Of a stretch of 64,000 nucleotides of DNA, positions 14,538 through 60,630 are shown in pieces. Made by a program: the position numbers and the translations under genes. The notes under the pieces were generated by a model. The model did not search any database. It had not been told where the DNA came from and was given only the letters and a program-made list of their open reading frames with translations. Each line of letters begins with the position of its first letter. The first letter of the stretch is position 1. This DNA is from Malus domestica. Its lineage: Eukaryota > Streptophyta > Magnoliopsida > Rosales > Rosaceae. The stretch lies in assembly GCF_042453785.1 (NCBI RefSeq), contig NC_091672.1:3130001-3194000 (forward strand), given 5' to 3'.

Positions 14538-15572
14538 GCATTTATTGTGGCGTTTCCATCTTTGCTAGTTGTGTGACTCTCGACTGTGAAGTATCTGTAA
14601 GTGGACCCCTTCTAAAATGCATGTTTTAATAGTAGAAATGCATACATGATAAACATGATTTATTGATTACGTTTGATGAGATATTATGCTTACTGAGAAT
14701 ATTTTGAATTATCATATTTTATCGAACTTATGTTCTTTATAGTATATATGATGGATGACTATATACTATTTAGGAACATGTTTTCTTTACACTTCTTTAT
14801 AGTATATATGATGGATGACTATATGCTATGAAGATGTTTTTGAGATATATGTACCTATGTTTGGAAAGATTATATTCAATGTTTTTGTGCGTATCTAATG
14901 GTCACTATTCTGCCTCTGGGCAATGATACTTATATTAGGCATTCGGGTCGGGTGATGTAGGGGCCTTCAGGTCGATTGAAGATTTATATATATGCCTTTG
15001 GGTCGGGTGATGTAGGGGCATTTGGGTCGATTTGAAGATTTTTATATTGGCCTTCGGGTCGGGTGATGTAGGGCCTTCGGGTTGATTATGATACCACTAG
15101 TTAGCATACTATATACGATATATGTTTTATTAAAGGTTTTATGGCATGCTAGGGTTTTCAGAAAACCTATCACATATTATGCTATTAGTTTTAAAAAAAC
15201 TTTAGGGGTTAGTATGTTGATAACTGTTTTTATTTATTATATATATATATTATGTTTGTTTTGCACCCCCTCAGGACTTAGAATCGAGACGCACAATCTC
15301 GGCGTCCAGGCACTTCTGCATCGGCATCTTCAAGTCCTCTCGGTGTATGACCCATTCCTTTATTCATTCAATTTCATATTACCTCCTTTTAGTGTTCTAA
15401 ATTAGTTGTATGCTTTGTACACTTTCCTCATTTGCATATTAATTATATTTAAATTTATAAGTCTTATTTATTTCTGGTTCTCATGTATCTTAATATGGCT
15501 TCATTATCTTCGGGTGTCGGCTAACACGTGCTTACCTTAGTGTTTGGGAGAATATCAGGGTCAGGCGTGTTA
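14538..15572 (+). repeat. LTR-retrotransposon LTR remnant, copy 1 (Ty3/gypsy-like)
   Basis: This stretch is repeated in the same orientation from 15712 onward (GCATTTATTGTGGCGTTTCC start; end near AGGCGTGTTA, matching GGGGCGTGTCA in copy 2). The end style and length of about 1 kb suit a Ty3/gypsy LTR. Three tandem units of about 55 bp, each with GGGTCGGGTGATGTAGGGG, lie near 14940-15090. No internal coding region is found between the two copies. It is an old fossil. Confidence 0.6.
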
Positions 15573-15711: not shown

Positions 15712-18637
15712 GCATTTATTGTGGCGTTTCCATCTTTGCTAGTTGCATGACTCTCAACGGCGAAGTATCTGTGAGTGGACCCATTCTAAAATGCATGTTT
15801 TAATAGTAGAAATGCATACATGATAAGCATGATTTATTGATTATGTTTTATGAAACGTTTTATGAGATATTATGCTTACTGAGAATATTTTGAATTATCA
15901 TATTTTATCGAATTGATGTTCTTTGTAGTATATATGATGGATGACTATATGCTATGAAGATGTTTTTGAGATATATGTACCTATGTTTGGAAAAATTATA
16001 TTCAATGTTTTTGTGTGTATCTAGTGGTCATTGTTTTGCCTCCGGGCAATGACACTTATATTAGGCCTTCTGGTCGGGTGATGTAGGGGCCTTTAGGTCG
16101 ATTGAAGATTTATATGTAGGCCTTTCGGGTCGGGTGATGGGGCATTCAGGTCGATTGAAGATTTATATATTGGCCTTCAGGTTGGGTGATGTAGGGGCCC
16201 TTGGGTCGATTATGATACCACTAGTTAGCACACTATGTACGAGATATGTTTTATGAAGGGTTTTATGGCATGCTAGCGTTTTTGGAAAACCTATCACATA
16301 TTATACTATTAGTTTTTATAAAACTTTGGGGGTTAGTATGTTGATAACTGTTTTATTATATATATATATATATATATATATATCAACTTGGTCCACTCAT
16401 GTTTGTTTTGCGCCCTTTCAGGACACAAGAACGAGGAATAAGATTCCAGATACGAGGCATTCCCCTACAAGTGATACTGCATCTTCCTCTTTGCTTTGAC
16501 TTCTATTGTAATAGCACCTCTCTATTTTATCTTCCGCCTGTGCTCTGAATTAGATGTATGCTCTGAACATGTTATGCATTATCATTATATTCATTGTTGG
16601 CACTTGAATATTATTATTGTGATAGAATCTTCACGCTAGGGGTGGGCACTTGGAACCGAAAACCGAAACCGAAACACGACTCGAATCGAACCACACCGAA
16701 CGGTTTGGTTTTGTGGTTTTGAAACGGTTTCGGTTTCAAAACTGAACTGCGACAAAGAAAATGGTTTGGTTTCGGTTTTGGGTTTTCAAAACCGCACTGA
16801 AACCAACACGAAACCGAAACCGCACCATATAATAAATAAATGTTATATTTTAAACTTTTAATTAGTTTCAAGTTCAACTAGGTTATAGATTTGGTTTTGC
16901 GGTTTTGGGTTTGCACTTCTCTTCAACTCTTGACTGCTTCTGCGCCTTGCATCTTTGCCTCTGCCTCTGCAATCCGCATCTCTGCCTCTACCTCTGCGAC
17001 TACGACTGCCTGTTTGCATCTCTACCTCTGCAATTGCAACCTCACTGAGTCACTGCTTGCCTTGCATCCCCAGATCCCCTTCATTTGCAAGCCCTAATCT
17101 CTGCAAATCAAAAGTTCTGCAAAACAGACTTGGCAAATCATTCACCTGCTCTTCGTTCCAGCTAATATGGTAAGAACTTAGAACTTGTATTAGTTAGAAC
17201 TTAGAACTTGTATTAGTTAGAACTTAGAACTTGTATTACTTCAAACTTGTATCATTCATCAATTTAATCTGTTTTTATGTTGATCTATATATATATAGCT
17301 AGTTTTAAGATATTAGATTAAGCAACTGTTTAGTTGAGGGCGTTGTATTTAGTATTACATTTGCATAATCTCTTTATGGTTTACATTTTATTTTTCATTT
17401 TGTTTCAATCTATTTTATCAGTTTTGGACCTTTCAATTTGTTTTCAGGTGATTCCTCTCTCATGGATTATTTTTTGTGGATTTTCATATGCAAATTATGC
17501 TAAAATTTTGATGTAATGTTCTTTAGATCTCTGTTAATGTTTTCGTTTGCAAACACGGTCGGTTCTCGGTTGTGAAGGACAATATTTCTTTTTGTGTTTT
17601 AGAATGAAATAGAATATGCTTTGTGTCAATTTTATGATCTGAGTTACTTGTCGAACTAGGTTATTTCGGGTTTGATGTGTTTGAATTTGTTCTGGGAGCA
17701 TTCAAGTAGTTAGAAACTGAAACCCCTAAGTTAATGAGAAACCATGTGGTCATTTTATTTGGTTTGTCATGGATGTGTTCTTTGTCTTCTGTGAACATCT
17801 TATTGTTTCTGGTTATGTTTTTATTTGCTCAAGCTTGCTTGATTTGGCTGCTTATAGAACATCTAAGGGAGTACTTAGTTTTTTATCGAGCAGAGGAGAG
17901 GTTTTCTTCACAGTCTCATTAACCAGGTTTACCTATATAGTTAAATGTGGTGTTTGACTAAGAACGAAAAACAAATTTTAGAATTGAAATGGTGTTGGAC
18001 CTTTTGCTTGAAGACAGCCTGATGCCTTAGCAGAAGAGTATGATGTTAATTAAAAGTTTTAAACTTGGATTGAAGTTGGTCGAATTTGATTAATGAAACA
18101 TGCAGTTCTGGAGCTTATAGCAGCTCAGCTAGCTGTTTTCTGTTTTGTTTTTGCTGAAACAGTTGATTTTGTTTGGAATTTTTGTTTTGAGCAATTCTGT
18201 GTTGGGTTCTACTTCTGGGATTATGTGATATTGTGATTGTTACAAGGAAAATAAGATCGTCTTATGCATAAATATGTGTATATTTTAAATTGTACATTTT
18301 TTTCTCAAAAACCAAACCGAAACCGTTTGAAACTGCACCGAACCGAACCAAACGGTTTGGTTTCATTTCGGTTTTGGCTTCAAAACTGCACTGCACCGCA
18401 CCGCAAAAAGTTTCTGTTTCGGTTGTGGTTTCACTCGAAATCGCACCGAACCGCACCGCGCCCACCCCTACTTCATGCATGAATGAATAGTCACATCCTA
18501 TTATTTTGCTATAATTTATACGCATGTTTTACATGTTCTTAGCATATGCATTCATTAAATGGGTTTCGTCATCCTCGGGTATCGATCAGCACGTGGCCAT
18601 CCCAATATCCCTCGGACATTGAGATCGGGGCGTGTCA
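15712..18637 (+). repeat. LTR remnant, copy 2, interrupted by a hAT element
   Basis: It shows the same sequence order as the copy at 14538-15572, including three units of about 55 bp near 16065-16210 and an AT microsatellite near 16360. The copy is split by the hAT insertion at 16637-18470 and resumes at 18479, ending GATCGGGGCGTGTCA. About 140 bp (15573-15711) separates the two LTR copies; it may be the 5' part of this LTR. It is an old fossil without coding parts. Confidence 0.6.
16637..18470. mobile_element. Non-autonomous hAT element, 1.83 kb
   Basis: The ends are TAGGGGTGGGC and GCCCACCCCTA, a perfect 11-bp inverted repeat typical of hAT elements. The 8-bp target duplication is CTTCACGC on the left (16629-16636) and CTTCATGC on the right (18471-18478), with one change. 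Both subterminal regions are packed with CCGAAACCG/CGGTTTCGG words. The interior has a C/T-rich leader-like stretch (about 16915-17165) ending near ATG and GTAAGA, then intron-like sequence, but no transposase. This suggests a deletion derivative of a larger element. It sits inside an LTR remnant. Confidence 0.88.
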
Positions 18638-20511: not shown

Positions 20512-20539
20512 ACCCACTAGTAGAAAAAACACTTTGCAC

Positions 20540-20870
20540 GACGGAGCAAATTTAGTCGTGCAAAGTGGGTTTGCGCGACTATAAACACAAAGTGTCGCGC
20601 AAATGTATTTTGCGTGATGAAAGTTGTGTCGCGCAAAACTGTTTTGCACGACGCAACCTTCGTCGTGCAAGATTTTGGTGCCAAACGAAGCATATTTACC
20701 GCTTTTATCCCAACTTTGCGCGACGCAGATGGGAAGTGGTCGCGCAAAACTGCTTTGCGCGACGGAGATGGGCAGTGGTCGTGCAAAACAGCTTTGCGCG
20801 ACGCCAGCCTTTGTCGCGCAAAGCTGTTTTGCGCGACCACTGCCCATCTCCATCGCTCAAAGTGAAACTA
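20540..20870. repeat. Left subterminal repeat zone of the CACTA element
   Basis: About a dozen TTTGCGCGAC or GTCGCGCAAA words, in both orientations and often 20-40 bp apart, form small hairpins. In En/Spm-type elements such motifs bind the TNPA protein (family knowledge). Short overlapping ORFs here are artefacts of the repeats. Confidence 0.85.
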
Positions 20871-21629
20871 GAAATTTTTGTCCTTCTGTCATTTATCACA
20901 CTCATCACTCCAATTCAAACACTTCACTCAAAACTGAGAAAACCCAACAGTTCACTCATCACTCCAATTCCAACACTTCACTTCACTCACTCTCATCACT
21001 CCAAAGGTAAGAGCTTTCTTTCCCCCACAATTTTGCTACTTTTCAAATTTTCATTTATTTTTTTATGACTTCTTTTTCTTTTGATTTAGTGTATTTGTTT
21101 GTTTATTTTAGACAAGACTCTAGGAACATGTAGAAATTGACTCAAGAGGAACGTGTAGATATTGAAAGCTTAAGCAGTTGCCATCTGATTTACTAAAGCT
21201 TATTAAGATTGGGGAGTGAGTCAGATAGAGTGACCATCTAAGCAACTACACCAAATGGAAATAAAGAATTTAATACAATAAATTGGAAAGTTAAAGAGAA
21301 TATATGATATTTGTAGTAATTTTTAGGTCCACTTATGTTCCCTTCTCTTTTCCCATGGATACTGACGAGGAAAAGAAAATGAAAAGCTTCAAGGACAAAA
21401 ATATCATGAGCAGGGGAGAATCGATCCCATGCATCATTCATTCTTCGTTGTCCAGTTCTATTGATTAATGTTGCGTTTCAGGAGGGAGAAGAAGATAAAA
21501 AATGAAGGACAATACTTGCATTCAATGTTCTGGTGTAAAAATGAATCTTTCCTTGTTGATGGCTCTTAGAATGAAATGGAATTGTAAACTATGTAACAGA
21601 GACAGGCCTTCTAATTTAAATACCTTGAT

Positions 21630-21880
21630 GATACAGGCAGGTGGAAGTGGGCATGAGGCTGCACACGCTGGATTTCTGGGGAATGGAATGCTAACTGCAG
21701 CTATTTGCGGGGATGTTTTTGCCTCACCACAAGTTGATTCAATTCTAGCAGTATGGTCTCCTGCAATTTATAGCTTTAATTGGAAGGGAACCAAACCCTA
21801 TTGATTTATGTACAATTGTTACATGAGGAGACTCTGATATGATATAATTGTATAATTTATAGGGCATCCGAGCTGTGACT
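21630..21880 (+). pseudogene. Captured fragment of dihydroxyacetone kinase (Dak1 domain)
   Basis: After an acceptor (GATGATACAG), the exon at about 21636-21750 encodes [18 protein letters not shown] and [20 protein letters not shown], the GGGSGHEPAHAG region of the DhaK-type kinase domain where substrate binds. A GTATGG donor follows. The next piece after TTATAG (about 21864) encodes GIRAVTG, the expected continuation in the plant enzyme. Only this small part of a protein of about 590 aa is present, and intron sequence is retained, so it was copied as genomic DNA. It sits inside the CACTA element upstream of the transposase. Residual function is unlikely. Confidence 0.85.
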
Positions 21881-23220
21881 GGTATAATTTGAAGGAGCAT
21901 TCTGAAAGACCATTGCTTGGGTTGTGACTGATATATTTATCATCATAGGGTTTTTGAACTCCTTCAGGTTGTCTTCTTATTGTGCAGGTATAATTTCTAC
22001 TTTGTCTTGAAGTTTGTTTGTTGGGTTATCCTTTGTATGGTTGGGATGCTAAATAATAGTTATGGCCCAAGTTTTGGAGCATTCTGAAAAACCATTAATT
22101 CATATTAAATTATGGAATTGATTTAGCTATAACAGAGACATGAGTGTTGCAACACAGTTACCACTGCTATTGCCCACTTCGACATCAATATGTGCAAGTC
22201 AGGCGGTGAATTCAGTTAAGATGTTTGTGGATTTAAAGGAGTTTTTATGCTATAACTATTAATTAATTAATTAAAATAAAATAAAAAAAACAGAAACCTT
22301 TGCAATTTTAACATAAGGTAAAGCTAGCATGCAAATGTGAAAACCAATTAGAGAAATCTGATCAAACCTAAGAAAATAATTAGTCCAAAAAAACACAAAT
22401 GCCATTAATTTGAAGGAGGTCAAACCCTATGATGATAAGAAAAATATGAGAAAATAAGTAAAGTGACACACAAAATTTTGTCCCGTTAATTATAAGAACA
22501 ATAGATCACAAAAATAAAATAAAATAAATACACAAACACTAAATTAAAATAAATACGAAAACTAATAAGATTAAAAAACTTGTTATTGTGTACCTTTGCC
22601 TGCGTGCTATGCCCTTTTTTGGTCATGATGGAGTTTTTTGGGATTGAATTTTTAATTAATCTTTATTAATTTTATCTATTTTATTTAGTTCTAGTAATTA
22701 TTGTGATTTAGTTTATTTGTATGCACATATTTTTGTACATCACGTACAAAATTGTTTTGTGTTGTACGAAGTTAATACTACTTAACTTCGTACCCTTTTT
22801 TCAAGAAAAGCTTAGTTTCCCGTTTGAGAATTAGTTGGATTTCGTGCATGGATGCGAAAGCATGACTGCGGTCCAATTAATTCTTGAATTGTCCCATTTT
22901 TTGGACAGTTTGGGAATGCATAGTTATGTGTTGTAGTTTGCGGTCCACATATTAGGTTTCGATAGTGGAAATTTTGGTAACATTTCCTGATGTTCTTCGA
23001 GTACACGGTGGATATTATGTATCTACGACGTGCACTTGAAGAACTGTAAGGAGATGCTGCCGAAATTAGCCCACGTCGAAATTTAATCCATTGGAATCAT
23101 AAATTACGGCACATAACTGTGCATTCTTGAATAGGATAGGGCCTTACCGGAGGAATAAGGTGACAAGACAATAGTTGAAGTTGTTGTAATTCTTGTACTT
23201 TTATTGGGATTGCAGACAAA

Positions 23221-26200
23221 ATGGACAGACAGTGGATACATAATCATAATAGATGTGCTGTTGAGTACTTGGATGGAATAGATGAGTTTGTTGAATTCGC
23301 AACTACACACAACCTAGGTTCAACTCATATCCGATGTCCGTGTAGGAGGTGTAACAACTCAATGTGGGAGACATTCGAGAATGTTCGATTTCATTTAGTA
23401 AGAAATGGGATGATGGAGACCTATACTACTTGGTATCATCATGGAGAACGATTAGACCAAGCTTCGTCTTCATACGTGACACGAGTGGAAACTGTTGAAT
23501 CTAATGTGGATCCTAATGAACAAGTTATGAATATTCTAAATGACGTTTATCCATACGCCTTGAGCAACACCAATCAGGAAGGGGGAGAAGGGGGAGATGA
23601 CAGTCGTCCAACCATGGACAGTGAGGAATTCAAAAACTACGAAAAACTATTGAAAAATGCCAAACAAGAATTATATCCGGGTTGTGAGAACTTTTCAGTG
23701 CTCACAGCAATTGTGGAGTTGATGCATGGCAAGATAAAGTTTCGTTTGTCAAACAAGTGTTTTGATTACTTTTTGGGAGTTATCAAGAGGATGCTTCCAA
23801 ATGAGAATTGTTTACCTGAAGATCATAAAAGTGCCCAAAAAGTGTTGAAGGGTCTCGGATTGGGGTATGAAAAAATTCACTCATGTGTAAATAATTGTAT
23901 ATTGTTCTATAAGGAGAACAAATCGTTGGATAAATGCCCTGTCTGCAATGAGCCGAGGTTTAAAATGACATCACATAATAGAAAGACCAAGATTCCACAA
24001 AAAGTAATGCGTTATCTTCCATTGAAGCCTAGGTTGCAACGATTGTACATGTCGATGCATACCGCAACCGACATGAGATGGCATAAAGAATGACGAGTAT
24101 ATGATGATGTTATGAGGCATCATGTAGATGGAGAGGCATGGAAAGAATTTGATCGGATGTACCCTGATTTTACAGCTGATCCGCACAACGTCAGATTGGG
24201 ACTTGCCACCGATGGATTTAATCCGTTCGGGGTTTTAAACCAAACCCACAACACTTGGCCGGTCGTCGTGTTTCCTTATAATCTGCCACCTTGGAAGTGC
24301 ATGAAAAAAGAATACATGATGTTGACTCTATTAATTACCGGAGATCCAAGAAAGTCCATTGATGTTTATTTGCAGCCGTTGGGTGATGAGCTAAAAGATT
24401 TATGGGAAAACGGTGTTCGTACATATGATAAATATACTGGGCAGATGTTCACCATGCGAGCGGCAGTGATGTGGATAGTAAACGATTTTTCCGCGTATGC
24501 AATGGTTTCTGGGTGGATGACTAAGGGTTATTTGGCATGTCCAATATGCAAGGAGAACGTAACATCGTCTTGGCATGCAAGAAAAGTTTGTTATCTTGGT
24601 CATCGTAGATGGCTCCCTTGGGACAACGAGTGGCGTCAGAATGATAAAGCCTTTGACGACACAAAAGAGACTCGGCCAAGACCAAGAGAATGGTCCGGAG
24701 ATGAGATTTTGGATCAGTTAAACCGTTTGGAATTTGGTCATTTCGGCAAAGGGGTCAGTAACCCCAGACCAACTACACATCTGAACTGGACACACAAGAG
24801 TATGCTATTTGAGCTTCCGTACTGGTCAAAGTTAAAATTGAGACACAACCTCGATGTTATGCATATTGAGAAAAATGTGTTTGACATTTTGGTCGGGACA
24901 ATTCTAGACATTGAAAGAAAAACAAAAGACACGATCGAAGCTCACCTCGATTTGGAACGAATGGGCATTAGGTCATCCTTGTGGATGAAGAATGTTGGTG
25001 GTACATTGAAGAAAGGCCATCCCTTTTTTATAGTTAAGTCAAATGGGAAGAAAGAGTTTTTCAACTTTATTTCTTCTGTAAAGTTTCCAGATGTGTATGC
25101 TTCCAATATCTCGCGTTACGTGAACGTGAATGGGTGTAAATTTTCAAACATGAAGAGTCATGACTGTCATGTGTTACTCCAACGCCTTCTTTCGGTTGGT
25201 ATTCGACATTTATTGCCTCTTGATGTGGTGAAACCAATCGTGTTGTTGTCGAGATTTTTTTCGCAGTTGATTGCGGTGTTTGCGGAAGTCAGATGTTAAA
25301 CAATTGCAGGACGACATTGTGAACGTCTTATGCAAGTTCGAGCAGATATTTCCCCCAGCTTTCTTTACAAGTATGATTCACGTGATGATTCACTTGCCAG
25401 ATGAGGCATTGCTTGCCAGACCAATGAACTGTCGATGGATGTATCCAATAGAAAGGTACTTGATTAAGCGTGTATATATATATATATAACATATTCATGA
25501 TCAACGAATGCTTTGAATAATTTGTAGCATACCTTTTATTTGTGCAGATATCTTGGTGAGTTGAAAAAGTGTGTTCGAAACAGGGCAAAGCCCGAATGAT
25601 CACTTGTGGAGGCATGGGTCGCATATGAGTCACTTACGTTTTGTGCAATGTATCTTCAAGATGTTGAGACAGCTTTCAATCATCTTGAACGCAATAATGA
25701 TGGTGGTGTCAGAAAAGAGAAACTGTCTGTTTTTGCCCAAATTGCGCGACTATTCGGCGATCCTGTAAAAGGCAAATCATTTACCAAAAAGAACATGAAG
25801 GTAGCGCATTGGTTCATACTCAACAATTGTGATGAGGCTTTGCCATACCTTCAAGAGCATGAACAGTTGATGAAGCAGGAACATTCTTCACATTCATATG
25901 CCAAGAAGCACCGTGACTTGTTTCCTTCGTGGTTTCACGAACATGTAAGTTGTATGTGGTTTGAATTGAGCATATTTTCCAAATTGTTCATGCCCGTCTT
26001 TAAATTTGGTTACACTAACAGGTTAACTTTTTGTATATGTTATGTTAGATGAACAAATTGAAGGAATTGAATTCACCCTCTTACGATGAAGAATTATATA
26101 ACTTGGCGAGAGGACCGATTCACACTGAATTGTTCTCAGGTTGTCATGTCAACGGGATCAAGTTCTTGGGGGCAACACGTGATGACAAGTTATCTACTCA

Positions 26201-26796
26201 AAATAGTGGTGTCCATGTCCCGGGTGCGGGCGACAGTGAAGACATTGATTTTTATGGCAAACTAACTAGTGTAATACAATTGCTTTACAAAGACAGGTGT
26301 CAAGTGATACTGTTTAAGTGTCTTTGGTTTGATACAAACCCACATAACCGAACGAGTGTTAAGCAAGACCATGGTTTACTATCAGTAAACACTACGAGAC
26401 ATTGGTACGATGAAGACCCATACATTTTGGCAACCATGGCGAAACAAATATTCTATCTGGACGACCCTAAAGCCGGCAATGGTTGGAAAGTTTTTTCAGA
26501 AGATTGATCGAAGAGGGCTATATGATATTCCAGAACTAGATCATGATGACAACGTCGCTGACCAACAGTTATCATCTTCGATAGAAATTGGTGAAGAAAC
26601 ACTTCGGGATACTAATATTGTCCAAGAACCGTTTGACGTACCTGGAGTTCCCGAATTCGAAATATCAATTGACCTTGGTGATTTGCCTCAATACAATGCA
26701 CCGGAACAGGCAAACGAAGATGAGGATGAATGGGAATCCGAAAATGATAGTAGTGAGGATAGCGAGAGTTATTATTGTAGTTCGGATGAGGATTAA
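23221..26796 (+). pseudogene. CACTA transposase (TNPD/Tnp2 type), decayed
   Basis: The N-terminus MDRQWIHNHNRCAVEYLDGI through IRCPCRRCNN is the transposase-associated domain (residues about 1-75). The Tnp2/transposase_21 domain follows: LYMSMHTATDMRWHKE, then GEAWKEFDRMYPDF, GLATDGFNPFG, PPWKCMKKEYMML and RHNLDVMHIEKNVFD. Downstream are a DUF4218-like part (FFTSMIHVMIHLPDEA) and a DUF4216-like part (DFYGKLTSVIQLLYKD). It ends in an acidic tail (EDEDEWESENDSSEDSES). Introns are visible at about 25456-25546 and 25945-26048. The reading frame is interrupted by an in-frame TGA near 24091, a frame change near 25268, another TGA near 25598 and a frame change near 26490. The element therefore cannot make a full transposase from this copy. 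I saw no separate TNPA gene. Confidence 0.88.
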
Positions 26797-27317
26797 TATA
26801 AACTTGGAAAGAAAAAAGCAGGAGGGTGAGGAGAGGCAAAGTCAAACTAAAAAAGGCACGGGATGAGTTCAAAACAATGCTAGAAGTACGTTGTTATCTT
26901 CTTCCCTCAAATTATTCTTCTCTACATAGAAATTATATGCTTTGTCTCATTTTCTTGTTCATGGCTTCAATTCCTTGTACGTTGTTATCTGCCACCGACG
27001 GCAGAGGCAGTTGGTCGTTTCACTGATGAAAACTTGTTCCAAACTGAGTAAAGTATTTTTGACTCCTATGGTGTATGAACTGTATAAAACAGGAATGGGA
27101 GAAACTACTTTTGAAAATGTGAAGTATTATATAAGTAGGCACCATTTTGTTTCCTTCCCAAGTATAAAAACAAATGTTTCCTTCCCAAGTATGCTTAGAC
27201 AATTGAATGATACCATAAGCTTATTAGTTACTACTTACCGTTCACATCTTGTTAGTTAACTGTTATGTGGTTTGGAATGTTGTCTTCTGTAATACTGCTT
27301 TATGAAACTGCAATTTA

Positions 27318-27790
27318 CATTGGCGAATGTGGATTTTGCAGATGTAAAGGTAGTCATGAAAAACTCAGGAACTGAAATGCTCGGAGTAGGTGTTTCCTCA
27401 ATTCAATCAGCTACTTCCATTCAATCAGCTGATTGGATCTTCAATTCAATCAGCTACTGGCGTTGTGTATAATATCACAAGTGGAGGTCGTAAATTATTG
27501 CTAGTGGTTGGTGCTGGTAGCCCCTTTTTCTTTGCTCCTTTCCTTGGCCTAATGAAGTCTGCAAACTATTGTAAATGTTCAGGTCCTTCTGTTAACATAA
27601 CATTTGGGGCTGTTGTGGATGATCGCTACGACGGAGAGCTTCATGTGACTATTATTGCAACAGGCTTTTCGCAGTCATTTCAGAAGACACTACTAATTAA
27701 CAGACCCCAAGGCAGCAAAGCTGCTTGACAAGGTTGCAGGGGGCAAGAAAGCAGAGCCACCACCATTTCATCAAAACCGTCGCCGAGAAA
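27318..27790 (+). pseudogene. FtsZ1: Captured fragment of plastid division gene FtsZ1
   Basis: Three collinear blocks match the C-terminal half of plant FtsZ1: LANVDFADVKVVMKNSGTEM with LGVGVSS, then LIGSSIQSATGVVYNIT, then NITFGAVVDDRYDGELHV with TIIATGFSQSFQKTLL. The family tail (TDPKAAKLLDKVAGGK-like) continues in a shifted frame near 27704-27750. Native sequence between the blocks is missing or replaced, with a short internal duplication of an ATTCAATCAGCTACT-like word. FtsZ1 forms the stromal Z-ring for chloroplast division, but this piece lacks the GTP-binding N-terminal part and cannot do so. It lies inside the CACTA element, downstream of the transposase. Confidence 0.88.
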
Positions 27791-28080
27791 GCTTTTATTT
27801 TAATTCAATTTGTATTTTTTCTCAGTCTCTTGTGCATTTTGCCTTGTAATGATACTAAAGTTCCAATCTATGAGATTTCATGTCACTATTTTCAGTCAAT
27901 TCCTTTAATCTATTTCACCTCCCACCTTTTACTTTCACTGCGTTTTATAACAAAATTTCAAGAAGCACGAACTTGAGATTGGCTAAATCAGTGGTCTCTC
28001 AAATATACGTACACACATTACATGTTTCAGTCATTTTTCCTCATGAAAATGTGAAAACAAAAATAAAAAATTGAAGAGTT

Positions 28081-28190
28081 GGTAGACGTCAATGTTGAAG
28101 CCATCTGCTTTATTTATTTTTGGCCCCAGCAAGCTATCTCGGTTGGAAGAGTTGGACGTCAATGTTGAAGCCATCTGCTTCACTTTCGAT
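28081..28190. repeat. Direct repeat of about 26 bp
   Basis: GACGTCAATGTTGAAGCCAT followed by CTGCTT occurs at about 28086 and again at about 28156. It may be leader-like sequence from another captured piece; the source is not recognised. Confidence 0.6.
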
Positions 28191-28559
28191 CTTAAATTTC
28201 CTATCATATCCTTTCAACGATTCATCTCTTTCTCTGATCTGAGTTTCAAAAATGGCAGCATAAAGAATGTCATACAATGATAGCCAGAAGTATGTTTAAC
28301 ATTATGAAGGACTATCTTACTATAACTGTGTTTGATTTTTATCAAAAGTTTCATGAGCTTCTATCACAAACGGTGATCACATGAAATACAAACTTAAAGA
28401 AGTCATAACTTGGGAATAAACCTCGTCACATGCTACATTGACCAATAGAAACCGGAAATGAAAGAAGAGCATACAACAGTGTTCAATTCCTATATTTGTT
28501 CCAATAGCAGTTTGGTGTATGCATTAAAACAAGTCAACTGTGATTACTTAAAAGAAGAG

Positions 28560-28815
28560 AATTAAGATTGAAGCAGTTGTTGTTCCATCCTTCTTCAAAG
28601 GAAACTTGAACTCAATCTCTAAATTCAGGAAACTTGTTAGACTGTTGGCAACCATGGAAATGATTTCCTTGATTTTGAGAGGATCATTTCTGTGTTTATG
28701 GCTAAGTATTGCAAACACTTCCGCTTCTTGTCTGGAATGTCCATCTTGAAGCCCTTTCAAGTTAGCATATTCTTCCAAGAGCCTGATCATGGTTGTAACA
28801 ATTTGCACCAGCAAG
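28560..28815 (-). pseudogene. Unidentified coding-like fragment inside CACTA
   Basis: The minus-strand frame reads VTTMIRLLEEYANLKGLQDG, then SRQEAEVFAILSHKHRND and LKIKEIISMVANSLTSF, with plant-like codon usage and helical character. I do not recognise the protein. Given the neighbours it is probably another captured host exon, but this is inference. Confidence 0.4.
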
Positions 28816-29151
28816 AGCACGATTTGACCAAACTGAGATAGAAATCAGCATGTACGCTTGATTTCTATCTCAACTTTGTAATCCTGAGTTTTGGACAGTT
28901 GAAGATCTGAATTTTTACCTTTTTTCTTAAGCTTATTTCGAAAGCTTCTTTTCCTGCTAAATGTCGTCTCCTATAATAGGAAAGCAAACTAATAATTACC
29001 AAGATCCACCAAAAAGACTCCATCGTCAATCAGAGCAGTAACAACATAGCAATATGCAATTCATTGTCTAAAACTAAGGATTAGGTGGAAGCAAAACGGT
29101 TGAATCATAATTAAGAATATCTTGTTTCAAATGGTATGTTTTTATACTTAC

Positions 29152-29290
29152 CACAGGCAGATCAAGTTCTCCTGCTCTACGAACTGCAGCAACCAGGTCA
29201 CGGTTAGATTCTGTATACATGCTAGTCACAAGTCCATATTGACCAGCTCTGGCTGTACGACCAACCCTGTGTATAAAGTCCACAGCATAA
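29152..29290 (-). pseudogene. Captured fragment of a DEAD-box RNA helicase (C-terminal motif VI region)
   Basis: The minus-strand sequence encodes VDFIHRVGRTARAGQYGLVT and SMYTESNRDLVAAVRRAGEL, containing helicase motif VI (HRVGRTARAG). It ends at a GTAAGT donor after LPV, so an exon edge was captured. The YTESNRDLVAAVR context resembles the plant RH22/RH39 group (my recollection). It joins directly to an RRM piece on its upstream side. Confidence 0.82.
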
Positions 29291-29299
29291 GTACCAAAT

Positions 29300-29400
29300 T
29301 GAGAGGACTAGCAGCAGCCATAGCTGAGTCCTCTTTGTCAAACTGAACAAACCCAAAACCCTTTCTCTTCCCATTTTCGTCTACTACATTGAAAGAGATG
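29300..29400 (-). pseudogene. Captured fragment of an RRM protein (poly(A)-binding-protein-like)
   Basis: The minus-strand frame reads NVVDENGKRKGFGFVQFDKE followed by DSAMAA. GKRKGFGFVQF is the RNP1 motif of an RRM, and the surrounding residues resemble cytoplasmic poly(A)-binding proteins. It is fused in the same open frame region to the helicase fragment, giving a chimera of two unrelated host genes. Upstream minus-strand sequence (to about 29918) is open but unrecognised. Confidence 0.7.
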
Positions 29401-30424
29401 AGAACGCAGGTCCTCTCCATTAACCATGTTGTATAATTCCTCTGATTGAACTTGTTGCTCTGATTGATGACAACCCTTTGATAAGATATATTGTCACAAG
29501 GATCAGTGAGAGTGTGACACCAACCCGGTTGCTGGAAAATATGGTCTTTCGCTATGCAATTAGGAAAGCAAACGGCATCCTGGTGTACATCAACCCTATT
29601 ACACAATTCCTGATTCGATTTCGATAACAAGCTGGTGAAAATAGAATAGTCAAGCTGGGAAATGGCCATGATTGTCAATGCACAGCTATGTAACAGTGAT
29701 AAGCAGAGGAACTGCTTGATAGCATTGATATGACCCAAACACCCATTCTCCTCAGTGAAACTAGCTGCAAGATCTTTAGGCGAAGAACGACAAACAAGTA
29801 CAACAATATCCAAAGCTTCCAGGTTGCTACTCAATGACATATTCTCCGTATTATGCCTCTTAGACATATCATCAAACAGATGGAATGCATAGAAATTTTT
29901 CTTCACAAATTTACCCACAAGATACCAATTAACTCATCCACATTTCTCAATCAAGAAGTCTTCATACATGATCACAATAACACCAGTATAATATGGTAGA
30001 ATAAACTGCAAAATCCAATACCATTTGTCCTTCCGATTTGTAAAATTTGAACCAATTCAAGTAAATATTCAATCACAGCAACTGCTGCTCAGATAAAATC
30101 GATGCAAATTCAAAACTTGAAACAAAGTAAGAAGTAATTAAACAACATGCACAAACCTAAACGATCCCACATAACCCATAATTCGCCAAAAAAAATGCTG
30201 ATGGACCCTAAATTCTAATCGAAATTGTCAAAACGAAACCAAGAAATTTTTTATCTCGATCATAAATATACGGGGGGAAACAAGATTGAAATAGATATGA
30301 TCCCAATGTAGAGGGTGATGAATTACCTGATTTAGGGATTGCGAATGTGGGCCGTGAAGAATGGGGAGATCGGAAGGGAGGGCAGAGACTGATCCTTGCA
30401 AAAGGATGATGCTATTTGTGCAAT

Positions 30425-30466
30425 CGGGTAAAAACGTTTTGCGCGACGTCGCGCAAAGTGTTTTAT
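30425..30466. repeat. Inner TTTGCGCGAC palindrome of the CACTA element
   Basis: GTTTTGCGCGACGTCGCGCAAAGTGTTTT is a near-perfect palindrome, the same motif as in both subterminal zones. Confidence 0.8.
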
Positions 30467-30523
30467 TTTTTTTTCCCTTTGCTTTTTTTTTGGGTTCTTG
30501 CATTGCCTTTTTTTTTTTTTTTC

Positions 30524-31316
30524 GTATCCACTTGTGTAAATGTTTTAAATTGACGATCGAATTAGTTCATTATATTCATATAGGATTAAAGAGTGTAGCT
30601 GTAAAAAATCATCAAAATCGGAGTTAAAATAACCGTTAAATCGTGAATTTTCGTTTACAACCGTCGAAACGTTTTGTCCCGTAACTTACTTGTGAACGTT
30701 TTTTTTTGAGATTTTTTGCGTATGCGATCTTGAAGCATATACAAACAAGTTTGACGGTTGGATCGTTGAAACTAGTCTCGTAGAATGCGTATCCCATTAA
30801 AACGATATATTCCCTAGCACTTAGATTTTATTTATACTTGCATCAACTATAACATAAGATTTTGTGGTATCCACTTGTGTAAATGTTTTAAATTGACGAT
30901 CGAATTAGTTCATTGTATTCATATAGGGTTAAAGAGTGTAGCTGTAAAAAATCATCAAAATCGGAGTTAAAATAACCGTTAAATCGTGAATTTTTGTTTA
31001 CAAACGTCGAAACGTTTTGTCCCGTAACTTTACCTATGAACGTTTGTTTTTTGAGACTTTTTTCGTATGCGATCTCGAAGTATATACAAACAAGTTTGAC
31101 GGTTGGATTGTTGAAACTAGTCTTGTAGAATGCGTATCCCATTAAAACAATATATTCCCTAACACTTAGATTTTATTTATACTTGCATCAACTATAACAT
31201 AAGATTTTAGGGTATCCATTTATGTAAATGTTTTAAATTGACGATCGAATTAGTTCATTGTATTCATATAGGGTTAAAAAGTGTAGCTGTAAAAAATCAT
31301 CAAAATTGAAGTTAAC
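30524..31316. repeat. Tandem repeat, unit about 343-345 bp, 2.3 copies
   Basis: The unit beginning GTATCCACTTGTGTAAATG starts at 30524, 30867 and 31212. The first two copies are complete and nearly identical; the third stops after about 105 bp, where the right subterminal zone begins. The low divergence implies a recent duplication. Confidence 0.92.
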
Positions 31317-31468
31317 AGGCTTTGCGCGACGCATGCCCGTCCTTCTGTCACTACCTTTGCGCGACAGTTTTTGCGCGACGAAGGTCCATTGTGCTAAGTT
31401 TTGCGCGACCTTTTGGGACTTTGCGCGACGAAGGACCTGCGTCGCGCAAAGTGTTTTTGGTACTAGTG
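31317..31468. repeat. Right subterminal repeat zone of the CACTA element
   Basis: Several TTTGCGCGAC/GTCGCGCAAA words occur within 150 bp, ending in the CACTA terminus. They mirror the left zone. Confidence 0.85.
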
Positions 31469-31471
31469 ACC

Positions 31472-51463: not shown

Positions 51464-54400
51464 ATGTCCGGCCGCCACGAGAAAGAGAAGGGCGTTAACG
51501 TCCAGGTCCTTCTCCGTTGCAGGTATTTACCCTTTCCCGCACTTCATTTCTCTCTTTAGGGTTAGGCTTTTTCAAAATCGTTATAAGGCGACATTTTTGA
51601 ATTTTTGAAATCCCTAATTACTTTGCGATTTTGTTAATTGTTACTTAAATTGTTGATTTAGGCCGTTTAGTGAGGATGAGTTGCGGAGCAATGCCCCGCA
51701 GGTTATTACTTGTAATGAGTACCAGAGGGAAGTGGCCGTGTCTCAGAACATTGCCGGAAAACACATCGATAGGGTTTTCACTTTCGATAAGGTCTTTTCC
51801 TTCAACCCAAGTATTGTTTTCTTTAATGTTGATTTTTCGGATTTTCGAAATTTTGAAATTGGTATGGTTATGGTCAAATTTTTAATTTTTAATTTTTGTG
51901 GCTTCTACTTGTAGGTTTTTGGTCCTAATGCTCAGCAAAGAGATCTTTATGATCAAGCTGTGATTCCAATAGTGCACGAAGTCTTGGAAGGCTTCAACTG
52001 TACCATTTTTGCGTATGGGCAAACTGGTACCGGTAAGACATACACAATGGAGGGTGAATTCAAAAGGGCAAAGGTATGGTGTTGCGGTTTCGTATTGAGT
52101 TTTGTGGTGATGTTGTCCAAGTTTTTGTCATTTAAATCTTTTGATGTCATGGTCTATTTAAACAGACTGGGCCTAATGGAGAATTGCCTCCCGAGGCTGG
52201 AGTTATTCCAAGGGCTGTCCAGCAGATTTTCGATACCCTTGAGGGCCAGAATGCAGAGTACAGTGTGAAAGTCACTTTCTTAGAGCTTTACAACGAAGAG
52301 ATTACTGATCTTCTTGCTCCAGAGGAACTTAATAGAGTTTCTTTGGAAGATAAGCAGAAAAAGCAGCTGCCTCTGATGGAGGATGGGAAAGGTGGAGTCC
52401 TTGTAAGAGGTTTGGAGGAGGAAATTGTGACAAGTGCGAATGAGATTTTTACTCTTCTCGAAAGAGGGTCTTCTAAACGTCGTACTGCTGAAACTTTATT
52501 GAACAAGCAGTCAAGGTAATGCAAATGCTTCTTTGACTGACTTCATGTATTCAGTGTCAACTTTTGTTTATGGTATTTTACTTTGTCAATTTCAGTCGGT
52601 CACATTCTCTCTTTTCCATCACCATACACATTAAAGAAGCAACCCCAGAAGGTGAAGAGCTGATCAAATGTGGAAAGTTGAATCTGGTTGATTTGGCCGG
52701 CTCAGAAAATATTTCTCGTTCGGGTGCTCGAGAGGTGCAATTCAGTTTGACTGTTCAAGTTTGTTTGTAGTGATAGGAATTGCTCTTTTAAATTTATGCT
52801 TAAACTGTTCTTAATTTTGCGCTCTCACAATTATTAGGGTCGTGCAAGGGAAGCCGGAGAAATCAACAAAAGTTTACTGACTTTAGGGCGAGTAATCAAT
52901 GCCCTGGTGGAACATCTTGGGCATATCCCATACAGGTTTGCTAAGCACTGTTTTGCTGTTATCTCTATGCCTATGCTCGTGGTTCTTCCCAGTTCTATTA
53001 ACAGAGTCGTATTTGAAATCAGGGATAGTAAGCTAACACGATTACTTCGGGATTCACTTGGAGGAAGAACAAAGACCTGCATCATAGCTACAGTATCGCC
53101 TGCTGTGCACTGTCTTGAGGAAACCTTGAGTACGCTGGATTATGCACACAGAGCGAAAAATATAAGAAATAAACCTGAGGTTTGTTATTTCATAATGGTA
53201 CCCATAGTTTCTTTATCTGATATGTTTCTCAACTGCGATCTTTTTGGTCAACTCTACAACAATTGTCTAAGGGAAGTTTGTTGTTGGTGCATAGAAAACC
53301 AGAGGCTCTTTTGTTACTGGAATAATACAATAATGAATTCGTCTTCTTGGCAAATTTGTACACCGTTACATGCCTATAGGAGTGATTACTGTTGGTTTGT
53401 GAATTTGTACATTGTTACAAACTTTAGGAGTGATTACTGTTGGTTCCACAAGTAATCTGTCCTTTCTTCTGTGAAGACTATAGTTTGGACGAGTTTACAA
53501 TCCTCACTTTTTATGTTTGTATGTCTTGTTATTTTGTGTTATTGCACAATGGTACTGTCGTATGTGATCTTTGTTAAGTGTTGAAACCTTTTTTCTTTTA
53601 ATGTTTCATAAAATGATGAAGTGCTGTATTTCAACCATTTGTAGGTGAATCAAAAAATGATGAAATCAACTCTTATCAAGGATCTTTATGGTGAAATTGA
53701 ACGGCTTAAGGCAGGTCAGACACTTTGGCTGCCGGTTTAAGTAAAGTGTCCCTGTAATTTCATATGGTGATTGTTTCTAATGTTGTGATTGTGTTCAGAG
53801 GTGTATGCTGCGCGTGAGAAGAATGGTGTTTATATCCCGAAGGAGCGATACTATCAGGAAGAAAGTGAAAGGAAGGTATAATATTTTCCTTTAGCTTGTT
53901 AAGGATATTATTTGTGTCTGGATCTGATAGCTTTTCTGAGGTACTTCTGTACAATGTTTGTTTGCTGATTTCTAGAAGGCAGTGCTTGCTTACTTTTTGT
54001 ATTTGTGAAACTTAACTTTTCTTTTCTCCATTTTTTGTTTGTGGTGGGTGTGGGGGGTTGCTATTATGGCTTTGCATAAACAACTCTTTCCATATATTTT
54101 GAAAGACATTGTACTTTCATTGATTAGCTGATTCTGAGGCCTTGTTAATTTTGTTTTGCTGTACTTATTCCCTTTTTTTCTTGTGTGTAGTCCATGGCTG
54201 ATCAGATTGAGAACATGGGGGTTGTAATAGAAAACCATCAGAAGGTTTGTCCATACGACATTTTTTTAAAGATAAGTCATTGACTTATTTCTGGTTTTTT
54301 GGCGATATCTAACTTCATTTTTACATGTGGCATGTTATAAACAGCAATTTGAGGAGTTGCAGAATAAATATGATCTCCAGGTTCGACAGTGTTATGAATT

Positions 54401-57825: not shown

Positions 57826-58776
57826 ATGTGGCGCGATGATCATTGCTCGATTACCCGCATGAAATGGAATTTGTATTTGTATCATTATTTTACACTTTTT
57901 CTCGCTTCTGAGAAATATAATGTAGCAGAGTGTAGTGGAAGTTGGGGGTGTATGGTTTGCTCCTGGTGCAGTCGGTGTACCAATAAATCCTGTCTTTGGA
58001 TTTAGCAGTGTAGCTCGATATACGTAGGAATTTATATTGGAGGCAGAAAAAACCTACATCTGTTTAATTTTTTTCAATCAATGGTGTTTTGTTCAACCAC
58101 ATTTGCAAGTTTTATCTTTCTTTTTGCGTTGACGTTGATTCGTTATCTCCTTCCATGCCGGCCATGATTTCGCGGTTGCTGCCGGTGCCACCAATCTCTT
58201 CCTCTTCCTCTCCCTTCTCTTATTGTCTCTGTACTGGTGAAGGCAAATGTTGAAATAAAATTCATAGGATTGTACTTTGCTCTTCAACGTTCAAATGTTA
58301 CAAGAGCTCGAGTAGAACTTGCGTCAAAAAATCGACTTGTAACTTGTAAGTAAAGAATCTTAAGTACGCTTAAATATAGTCTTAAATTATATTCTCCCAA
58401 ACCTCATGAATTTATGATAACCTGATTTCGAGAAAGGAAAAGGGAATATACCCTAATTCCATTTTACTTTTAAAACAAAAAAAAGATGGTATCTAAAGTT
58501 TCAAGTTCGATTCTCATAGAAACTTGAAACAAGATCTCCATATTATATTTGTGTATGATTCAATGAAAAATTCTATGATGTTACGGAGTATAAGATAGTT
58601 TAAGCTTTTTAACCTTTAGATTTAGATTTTTTAATTTTAAATAAAAGATCTAATGCTTAAAAAACCCGGATTTTCCATGTTTCAGATCATCGTAGAAAAT
58701 CCGTGACGTGCTGTCTCATTCTGAAACTACAAACTCCAAGACTGTTTGAAACATTGTCAACTCCCACAACCTTGTT
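57826..58776. other. KIN5C 3' flank and PPR promoter region
   Basis: About 950 bp. The KIN5C 3' UTR should end soon after AATAAA (57982). The remainder holds no supported feature apart from AT-rich sequence before the PPR gene. Confidence 0.5.
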
Positions 58777-60630
58777 ATGCTCAAACTGAAAAACCAGACC
58801 TTCCTTGACCCCAACCATGGCATCCTCAGACTCCCATTGTTCTCCACAGCTGCTGCTGTTACAAACACCACGGCTGTCCCCGCCCAACCTCATTTTCCCC
58901 GAACTCTGGACCCCAAATTCTATGTCAACGTCCTGCTCAGCTCCAGAAACATCTTTCACATCCGACAAGTGCATGCCCAAGTGACTGCCAATGGAATGCT
59001 CCAAAATCTCACCGTTGCAAACAAGCTGCTTTATATGTACACCCAGCAGAGGGTGCTGGGTGAAGCTTATGCTCTGTTTGGTGGGATGGAGGAGAAAGAT
59101 GCAGTTTCTTGGAGTGTAATGGTTGGTGGGTTTGTGAAGGCTGGTGATTATACCAATGGTTTTGCAACATTTAGGGAGCTTATTCGAGGCGGTGTTTCGC
59201 CGGATAACTATACATTGCCCTTTGTGATTAGGGTTTGTAGGGATTTGATGGACCTGCAAATGGGCAGGTTGGTTCATGGCATTGTGTTGAAGCATGGGTT
59301 GGTTTCGGATAATTTTGTTTGCGCTGCGCTCGTGGACATGTATGCGAAATGTAGGGTTATCGATGATGCCCGCCAACTGTTTGATAATATGCAGAGCAGG
59401 GATCTTGTGAGTTGGACAGTGATGATTGGTGCATGTGCTGAGTGCAGGAATGCTGATGAGGCTTTGGTTTTGTTTGATCGGATGGTTGATGAAGGTGTTT
59501 TACCGGATAAGGTTGCTATGGCTACTGTTGTTAATGCTTGTGCAAAATTGGGGGCTATGCATAAAGCCAGGCTTGTTGATGATTATATATGTAGGAATAA
59601 GTTTTCGTTGGATGTGATCTTAGGAACGGCGATGATTGATATGTATGCTAAGTGCGGATGTGTTGATTCTGCTAGGGAAATTTTTGATAGGATGCACGTA
59701 AAGAATGTTATAACATGGAGTGCTATGATTGCAGCGTATGGTTATCATGGGCACGGCCGAAAAGCTATTGATATTTTTGAAATGATGTTAAGCAGTGGAG
59801 TGTCACCAAATGCAATAACTTTTATTTCACTATTATATGCTTGTAGTCATTCAGGCTTGATCGAAGAGGGTCTTCGGTTTTTCTCTTCGATGTGGGATGA
59901 ATATGCTGTCAGAGCAGATGTCAAACATTATACTTGTATGGTTGATCTCTTGGGCCGTGCTGGGAAACTTGATGAGGCCTTAAAATTAGTCGAGAGCACG
60001 GCAGTTGAGAAAGATGAGGGGTTATGGGGAGCTTTTCTTGGCGCATGTAGAATCCATGGGAATGTAGACCTGGCAAAAAAGGTAGTGAATTCTCTTCTTG
60101 AACTACAGCCAGAAAACGCAGGGCATTATGTATTGCTTTCAAATATATATGCACGAGAAGGTAGGTGGAAGGAAATGTCAAAAATGAGAGATCTGATGAC
60201 CCAGAGGAAACTGAAGAAAATTCCGGGTTTGACTTGGATTGAAGTGGATAACAAAATTTACCAATTTAGCGTGGGCGATAGGTCTCATCCATGGTCAGAA
60301 AAGATTTATGCGATGATCAAGAGTTTGAATGAGAAGTTGGAGCTGGCTGGTTATGTGCCTGATACAAATTTTGTGTTACATGATGTTGACGAGGAAGTGA
60401 AGTTGGGTATGTTGTCTTCACATAGTGAGAAGTTGGCAATTGCATTTGGTCTCCTTGCCACTGCTGATGGAACTCCGATCAGAATTACAAAAAATCTTAG
60501 GGTTTGTGGTGACTGCCACTCGTTTATCAAGTTTGTATCGGCTATAACACAAAGGGTTATCATTGTTCGAGATGCAAATCGATTTCACCACTTCAAAGAA
60601 GGGGCATGCTCATGTGGAGATTATTGGTAA
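58777..60630 (+). CDS. DYW-class pentatricopeptide repeat protein (617 aa)
   Basis: PLS-type PPR proteins with a DYW domain bind organelle RNAs, and the DYW domain is the cytidine deaminase for C-to-U editing. The intronless ORF shows PPR motifs from about residue 40 to 415, for example DAVSWSVMVGGFVKAGDY, NFVCAALVDMYAKCRVIDDA, DLVSWTVMIGACAECRNADE and HYTCMVDLLGRAGKLDEA. The E region (about 416-485) and the PG box PGLTWIEVDN (483-492) follow. The DYW deaminase domain has the catalytic HSE (H549, E551) with zinc-ligand CGDCH (577-581), and ends CSCGDYW. All key residues are present. The N-terminus (LPLFSTAAAVTN) is compatible with an organelle transit peptide. Single exon and length are normal. 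The edited target site cannot be told from this sequence. The gene is 950 bp downstream of KIN5C, same strand, with no functional link implied. Confidence 0.95.
   Translation: MLKLKNQTFLDPNHGILRLPLFSTAAAVTNTTAVPAQPHFPRTLDPKFYVNVLLSSRNIFHIRQVHAQVTANGMLQNLTVANKLLYMYTQQRVLGEAYALFGGMEEKDAVSWSVMVGGFVKAGDYTNGFATFRELIRGGVSPDNYTLPFVIRVCRDLMDLQMGRLVHGIVLKHGLVSDNFVCAALVDMYAKCRVIDDARQLFDNMQSRDLVSWTVMIGACAECRNADEALVLFDRMVDEGVLPDKVAMATVVNACAKLGAMHKARLVDDYICRNKFSLDVILGTAMIDMYAKCGCVDSAREIFDRMHVKNVITWSAMIAAYGYHGHGRKAIDIFEMMLSSGVSPNAITFISLLYACSHSGLIEEGLRFFSSMWDEYAVRADVKHYTCMVDLLGRAGKLDEALKLVESTAVEKDEGLWGAFLGACRIHGNVDLAKKVVNSLLELQPENAGHYVLLSNIYAREGRWKEMSKMRDLMTQRKLKKIPGLTWIEVDNKIYQFSVGDRSHPWSEKIYAMIKSLNEKLELAGYVPDTNFVLHDVDEEVKLGMLSSHSEKLAIAFGLLATADGTPIRITKNLRVCGDCHSFIKFVSAITQRVIIVRDANRFHHFKEGACSCGDYW

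Follow-up and report, generated by a model that had tools for sequence, protein, structure and literature searches.

A CACTA transposon in apple that carries pieces of host genes, probably taken in over several steps

How does one transposon come to hold pieces of several unrelated host genes? The question is raised by a stretch of 64,000 nucleotides of the Malus domestica genome (NC_091672.1, positions 3,130,001 to 3,194,000; C12:3130001-3194000 in the contig numbering used here), which we call the window and to which unprefixed positions refer. Window 20515-31468 is a single CACTA (EnSpm) transposon carrying pieces of host DNA. For the capture of host genes by cut-and-paste transposons both copying during repair and fusion of neighbouring elements have been proposed. 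Our reading, to which we give a probability of about 0.68, is that this element took in its passengers over several steps by abortive gap repair.

The framework of the element consists of the following features.

20512-20514, left target-site duplication, ACC
20515-31468, CACTA element, the C12 copy
20515-20542, plus strand, left terminal inverted repeat, starting with CACTA, of a family found genome-wide
20515-21171, plus strand, family 5′ end, common to the C15 copy and other elements
20570-20837, 5′ subterminal TTTGCGCGAC repeats, direct and inverted
23179-26796, plus strand, decayed Tnp2-type transposase gene with Transpos_assoc, Transposase_21, DUF4218 and DUF4216
30524-31315, 345-bp tandem repeat in 2.3 copies, family 3′ region
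31441-31468, minus strand, right terminal inverted repeat
31469-31471, right target-site duplication, ACC

The terminal inverted repeats are 28 bp long, reading CACTAGTAGAAAAAACACTTTGCACGAC from 20515 and, inverted, CACTAGTACCAAAAACACTTTGCGCGAC up to 31468, and are alike at 25 of the 28 bases. Genome-wide searches were made in the window's own genome (651 Mb in 19 contigs). There the 28-base terminal pattern, allowing up to three mismatches, has 228 forward and 219 reverse occurrences; the same pattern read backwards, as a control, has none in either direction. The transposase gene has Transpos_assoc, Transposase_21 (1.2e-86) and DUF4216 above the Pfam cut-off and DUF4218 below it. Its in-frame stop at 24091 is missing from all seven aligned relatives among the fetched loci, and the region has at least 41 matches in the genome, with the best 40 of 454 candidates scored. 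All repeat counts are lower bounds, since the best 40 candidates were likewise scored for the pieces at 28-30 kb (of 93), a further search (of 407), the family 5′ end (of 355) and the right end (of 258). Scoring was complete for the FtsZ1/ORC1 region (15 of 15 candidates), the dihydroxyacetone kinase (DAK) region (16 of 16), the joined flanks of the element (2 of 2) and the piece at 21234-21526 (9 of 9). The joined flanks match only the window's own two flanks, so that no empty copy of the site was found in this genome. CACTA ends, a 3-bp duplication, a Tnp2-type transposase, subterminal repeats and dispersed copies with the same ends place the element in the CACTA (EnSpm) superfamily. In the 3′ region the copy number of the 345-bp repeat seems to vary among elements (the C15, C16 and C14 copies), and at C17:11414661-11415411 both family ends lie ~750 bp apart, perhaps as a very short family member.

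What, then, lies between these ends? Pieces were matched to donors by blastn of the element against fetched loci, and named from Pfam and PDB matches.

21234-21526, further piece, 97% identical in the C15 element and 81% to C9:5141198-5141539
21566-22096, plus strand, dihydroxyacetone kinase (Dak1) piece; donor C6:34778773-34779221, 94 and 90%
27024-27152, plus strand, ORC1 exon piece; donor C3:23287948-23288076, 96%
27163-28076, plus strand, FtsZ1 piece with intron sequence; donor C3:25939561-25941565
28077-28104, templated filler from the SNARE donor beside the junction, at the FtsZ1-SNARE joint
28102-28550, minus strand, Qc-SNARE piece 1; donor C3:25953741-25954189, 95.5%
28543-28832, minus strand, slice of a dispersed chimeric repeat
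28845-29298, minus strand, DEAD-box helicase piece, inside the repeat slice; donor C13:5762959-5763412, 96%
29298-30051, minus strand, chimeric-repeat slice, continued, with a 235-amino-acid frame
30044-30375, minus strand, Qc-SNARE piece 2, from the same locus as piece 1; donor C3:25955454-25955787, 94.6%

Judged by these similarities, at least five host genes stand behind the pieces: those for DAK, ORC1, FtsZ1, a Qc-SNARE and a DEAD-box helicase. The first matches Dak1 in Pfam (3.4e-17) and dihydroxyacetone kinase in the PDB (4.1e-16). The joined donor exons of the second match ORC1 in the PDB (8.6e-8), with Pfam Cdc6_C (3.9e-4) below cut-off. The FtsZ1 piece matches FtsZ in the PDB (6.9e-10) as a peptide joined across broken frames, Pfam FtsZ_C in one frame being below cut-off; by blastn 27163-28055 aligns with C3:25939561-25941514 at 95, 81 and 82%, where the low values count gaps, and there are internal deletions of ~730 and 281 bp relative to the donor. 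The joined Qc-SNARE donor exons match syntaxin 8 in the PDB (7.5e-5) and no Pfam family at cut-off; we take this donor to be SYP51/52-like. For the DEAD-box fragment there is no match in Pfam, but one to a DEAD-box helicase in the PDB (1.5e-4), and the adjoining donor exon has Helicase_C (5.3e-16). For the piece at 21234-21526 there is no Pfam match, and its remaining listed matches, with all candidates scored, are of 50 bases or fewer. For each of the five donors there is another, more diverged copy on a different chromosome (DAK on C14, ORC1, FtsZ1 and SNARE on C11, DEAD on C16), and we presume these to be homoeologs.

The five donors are not all independent. The FtsZ1 and SNARE pieces have the order and orientation of their donors on C3:25939561-25955787, within 16.2 kb, and a simple area argument puts the chance of such closeness in that orientation at ~2e-5. 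Being collinear neighbours on C3, they therefore probably derive from one donor locus rather than from two. The original prediction had counted at least four unrelated donors, namely DAK, FtsZ1, a DEAD-box helicase and an RRM protein. Five host genes are found, of which FtsZ1 and SNARE share a neighbourhood; three of the names hold, whereas the RRM piece came by another route (below) and ORC1 and the Qc-SNARE had been missed.

Do the pieces travel together? The clearest answer comes from a sister copy at C16:34257244-34280394, with family ends at 34280394 and 34257244 and TTA on both sides. It is collinear with the C12 copy over 22553-28039 (96.9%), 28162-29432 (96.3%) and 30014-31315 (89.0%, tandem array included), as compared outside 34257411-34270301 and 34278967-34280091. 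It contains the transposase, ORC1, FtsZ1, SNARE, repeat and DEAD pieces and lacks 28040-28161 and 29433-30013; there is no C16 match for 21100-22300 among the DAK-region candidates, all of which were scored, and the copy thus appears to be without DAK. Since this sister has its own TTA and holds its pieces in the same order at ~97% identity, the pieces move as one unit. A second relative, at C15:34261550-34273310 and compared outside C15:34267701-34273289, has the DAK, FtsZ1, SNARE and repeat pieces, and is without 23645-27743 and hence without the Tnp2 domain. A third, at about C17:31218000-31262006, holds transposase, ORC1, FtsZ1 and SNARE pieces; repeat and DEAD pieces were not among the matches listed for this partly read copy (best 40 of 93 candidates). 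The FtsZ1-SNARE joint is common to the C12, C15 and C17 copies, while C16 is without 28040-28161. Further afield, elements on C4, C7 and at 18.1 Mb on C17 share the family 5′ end and DAK piece, and FtsZ1 3′ or SNARE pieces are found in two elements on C14 and one at 16.7 Mb on C12.

These copies bear directly on the idea that the pieces inserted separately and at a later time, or are artefacts of assembly, and never formed one mobile unit. Four donor neighbourhoods and another repeat are represented, and the repeat slice could have inserted by itself. Yet the order of the pieces is the same in the C16 and C15 copies; a scan allowing four mismatches finds family ends only at the two termini of the C12 element; self-comparison reveals no repeats bordering the slice at 28543-30051; and the slice substitutes for 1.26 kb of SNARE donor sequence instead of being added to it. 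We regard separate insertion as highly improbable. The original prediction of one element with both ends, an ACC duplication, a decayed transposase and captured pieces on both strands is thus borne out, as is its expectation that the termini form a repeat family, and neither of the two outcomes that it had named as refuting was observed. Relatives with several of the pieces lie on C16, C15 and C17, and others with one or two on C4, C7, C12, C14 and C17. Its description of a single copy has to be given up.

The RRM piece has a different history. A 235-amino-acid minus-strand frame at 29226-29933 has RRM_1 above the Pfam cut-off (2.1e-5) and a Sec7-like HUS domain below it, but direct capture from a host gene was rejected because the same sequence, 28543-28832 together with 29298-30051, is dispersed in other surroundings, on C1, C4, C6, C7, C8, C9, C10 and C17. 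Two of these copies were scanned with Pfam. That at C8:6457316-6461000 has Hsp70 and Ufd2P_core above cut-off, with GTP_EFTU, Sec7-like HUS and Sec7 below; that at 27.08 Mb on C6 has RRM_1, Ribosomal_L3 and MFS_5 above. The RRM-bearing sequence is part of a dispersed chimeric repeat, and therefore the element took a slice of a repeat that was already chimeric. This suggests that pieces of host genes are handed on between families of gene-shuffling repeats. The repeat is possibly a non-autonomous long terminal repeat element. The C8 copy has an open stretch of 930 amino acids, and such long frames string together several host-gene pieces; no selection on the long frame was seen, C8 and C10 differing by 22, 18 and 18 changes at codon positions 1, 2 and 3 over 928 codons.

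The arrangement of these pieces is a nest, in which DEAD lies within the repeat slice and the slice within SNARE (SNARE, repeat, DEAD, repeat, SNARE). At the junctions the alignments of adjacent pieces either share 1-10 bp or are separated by fillers of 10-12 bp (27153-27162 and 28833-28844). Three further fillers copy donor sequence from nearby: one within DAK, where a 76-bp insert at 21884-21959 holds a copy of donor sequence from close by, one within FtsZ1, and one where FtsZ1 meets SNARE, the last being present in the C17 copy too. For each of the three, 0 of 200 shuffles reach the observed score. An origin of the FtsZ1 piece from processed complementary DNA (cDNA) was rejected; intron sequence is retained and, on our reading of the frames, the deletions cross exon borders, so it was DNA and not cDNA that was copied or taken.

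The ages of capture were estimated from Kimura two-parameter (K2P) distances for the DAK, ORC1, FtsZ1, SNARE and DEAD pieces, the alignment of fragments with parental genes having been proposed at the outset as a means of dating. Between element and donor these are 0.050 for DAK, 0.040 for ORC1, 0.048 and 0.049 for FtsZ1, 0.046 and 0.053 for SNARE and 0.036 for DEAD. The range of 0.036-0.053 is below that between donors and their presumed homoeologs (0.076-0.196), and the captures would therefore postdate the homoeolog split. The five donor groups are homogeneous (chi-square 1.34, 4 degrees of freedom, p 0.86), and by this measure the captures appear to be of similar age within error. Distances between copies are 0.016-0.039 for C12-C16, 0.042-0.058 for C12-C17 and 0.010-0.029 for C12-C15.

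How might such an element have been built? Nested replacement, short overlaps and templated fillers lead us to favour repeated abortive gap repair, a process reportedly due to Rubin and Levy, over fusion of neighbours. In such a scheme the element or its progenitor would excise or break to leave a gap, which would be repaired from other templates in place of the sister chromatid; the switches between templates would take place where homology is slight or absent. The C3 neighbourhood from FtsZ1 to SNARE would have been taken in, probably once, and internal parts then lost. Later the interior of the SNARE piece would have been replaced by the chimeric-repeat slice, and the interior of that slice in turn by the DEAD-box piece. 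The element would then have spread, and deletion derivatives arisen.

Several observations weigh against this reading. The junction overlaps are short and include mismatches, and taken alone they cannot tell copying from end joining. Base counts are all that the shuffle control preserves, and the windows for the fillers were picked after inspection. Across the 12.2-kb gap between FtsZ1 and SNARE on C3, read in small part, a single capture with a large deletion is not distinguished from two local captures. The nest predicts the smallest distance for the inner DEAD piece, and its distance is indeed the smallest, but not significantly so. That the ends assigned to the C16 and C15 copies belong together is judged, in copies read in part, from their positions and in the case of C16 from the equal TTA as well; and the C15 copy is flanked by TTT and ATT, without a clean 3-bp duplication, although ATTTT is found on both sides.

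The main competitor is the capture model described for Pack-CACTA and other Pack-TYPE elements (PMC8903248, section 9), in which two copies that inserted close together next transpose by their outer ends, carrying along the intervening host DNA. The FtsZ1-SNARE pair is one collinear donor block, as expected between two insertions, and there are internal GCGCGAC repeats at 30438-30457. The GCGCGAC block, however, adjoins ordinary family 3′ region that is common to other elements; of the 447 terminal-pattern places, the 100 listed are all more than 100 kb from the four donor loci, the nearest being ~202 kb away on C13, though old insertions may be gone; and fusion alone yields neither templated fillers nor a nest of unrelated donors. 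Fusion is a possible origin of the C3 block, and we consider it rather unlikely as the account of the element as a whole.

Could the captured exons serve a function, either transcribed into a new protein under selection or giving small RNAs that regulate the donor genes? The 235-amino-acid frame is open, and in soybean the exons carried by the CACTA element Tgm-Express1 are spliced into host transcripts (PMC1947982). Against this, changes of 19, 4 and 1 bp, besides larger deletions, disrupt the FtsZ1 frame, and most of the 235-amino-acid frame is missing from the C16 copy (29433-30013). A selected chimeric gene or such a regulatory role is very unlikely in our estimation, and as far as the frames can tell the pieces are most likely passengers without protein function. 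For annotators they carry a risk of false ORC1, FtsZ1 and other gene fragments.

If abortive gap repair is correct, one might go further, tentatively, and view this CACTA lineage as keeping a serial record of gap repairs that failed. With every breakage an inner, locally templated insert would be added, the nest would be a time-ordered log, and the family would transmit blocks of host genes with their neighbours kept, together with slices of other gene-capturing repeats. We think this extension doubtful as it stands. With five donor genes, their presumed homoeologs and partly overlapping sisters all in one genome, each junction can be compared with the intact donors and the steps put in order.

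Elsewhere in the window there is a kinesin motor exon at 52838-53455, a PPR-DYW protein gene with a 626-amino-acid open frame at 58750-60630, and two arrays of a similar 53-55-bp tandem unit, ~1 kb apart, at 14930-15087 and 16057-16211.

How does the apple element compare with known systems? No literature on CACTA gene capture in Malus was found, judged by titles or the beginnings of abstracts, and the word ‘capture’ is absent from the main text of a survey of Rosaceae transposons (PMC11197308). The suggestion that the family is little described may therefore be fair for this lineage, but the kind is well described (PMC1947982, PMC8903248, PMC8978399). Tgm-Express1, a CACTA element of 5.7 kb, lies in a flower-colour gene whose transcripts take up its exons by splicing; it contains both exon and intron sequence from five host genes unrelated to one another (PMC1947982). 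Both elements hold pieces of five host genes; that of apple also has a transposase gene, and sister copies, donors and their second copies with which it can be compared. Pack-CACTA elements are known from Arabidopsis, rice and maize, and Pack-TYPE elements are described as non-autonomous (PMC8903248). As in these, captured host coding DNA lies between CACTA ends, but the apple copy retains transposase coding sequence, though broken, and so we do not file it as Pack-CACTA; the C15 copy, without the Tnp2 domain, comes nearer to that definition. CACTA elements of Chenopodium have captured gene fragments and tandem arrays in their 3′ part (PMC8978399), and both traits are shared by the apple element. 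In Chenopodium the pieces precede ORF1, in the 5′ region, whereas those of apple are mostly 3′ of the transposase and come from more donors per element. Single elements with several captured genes are thus already known, with precedents in soybean and maize, and the apple transposon is a well-documented new example rather than a new kind.

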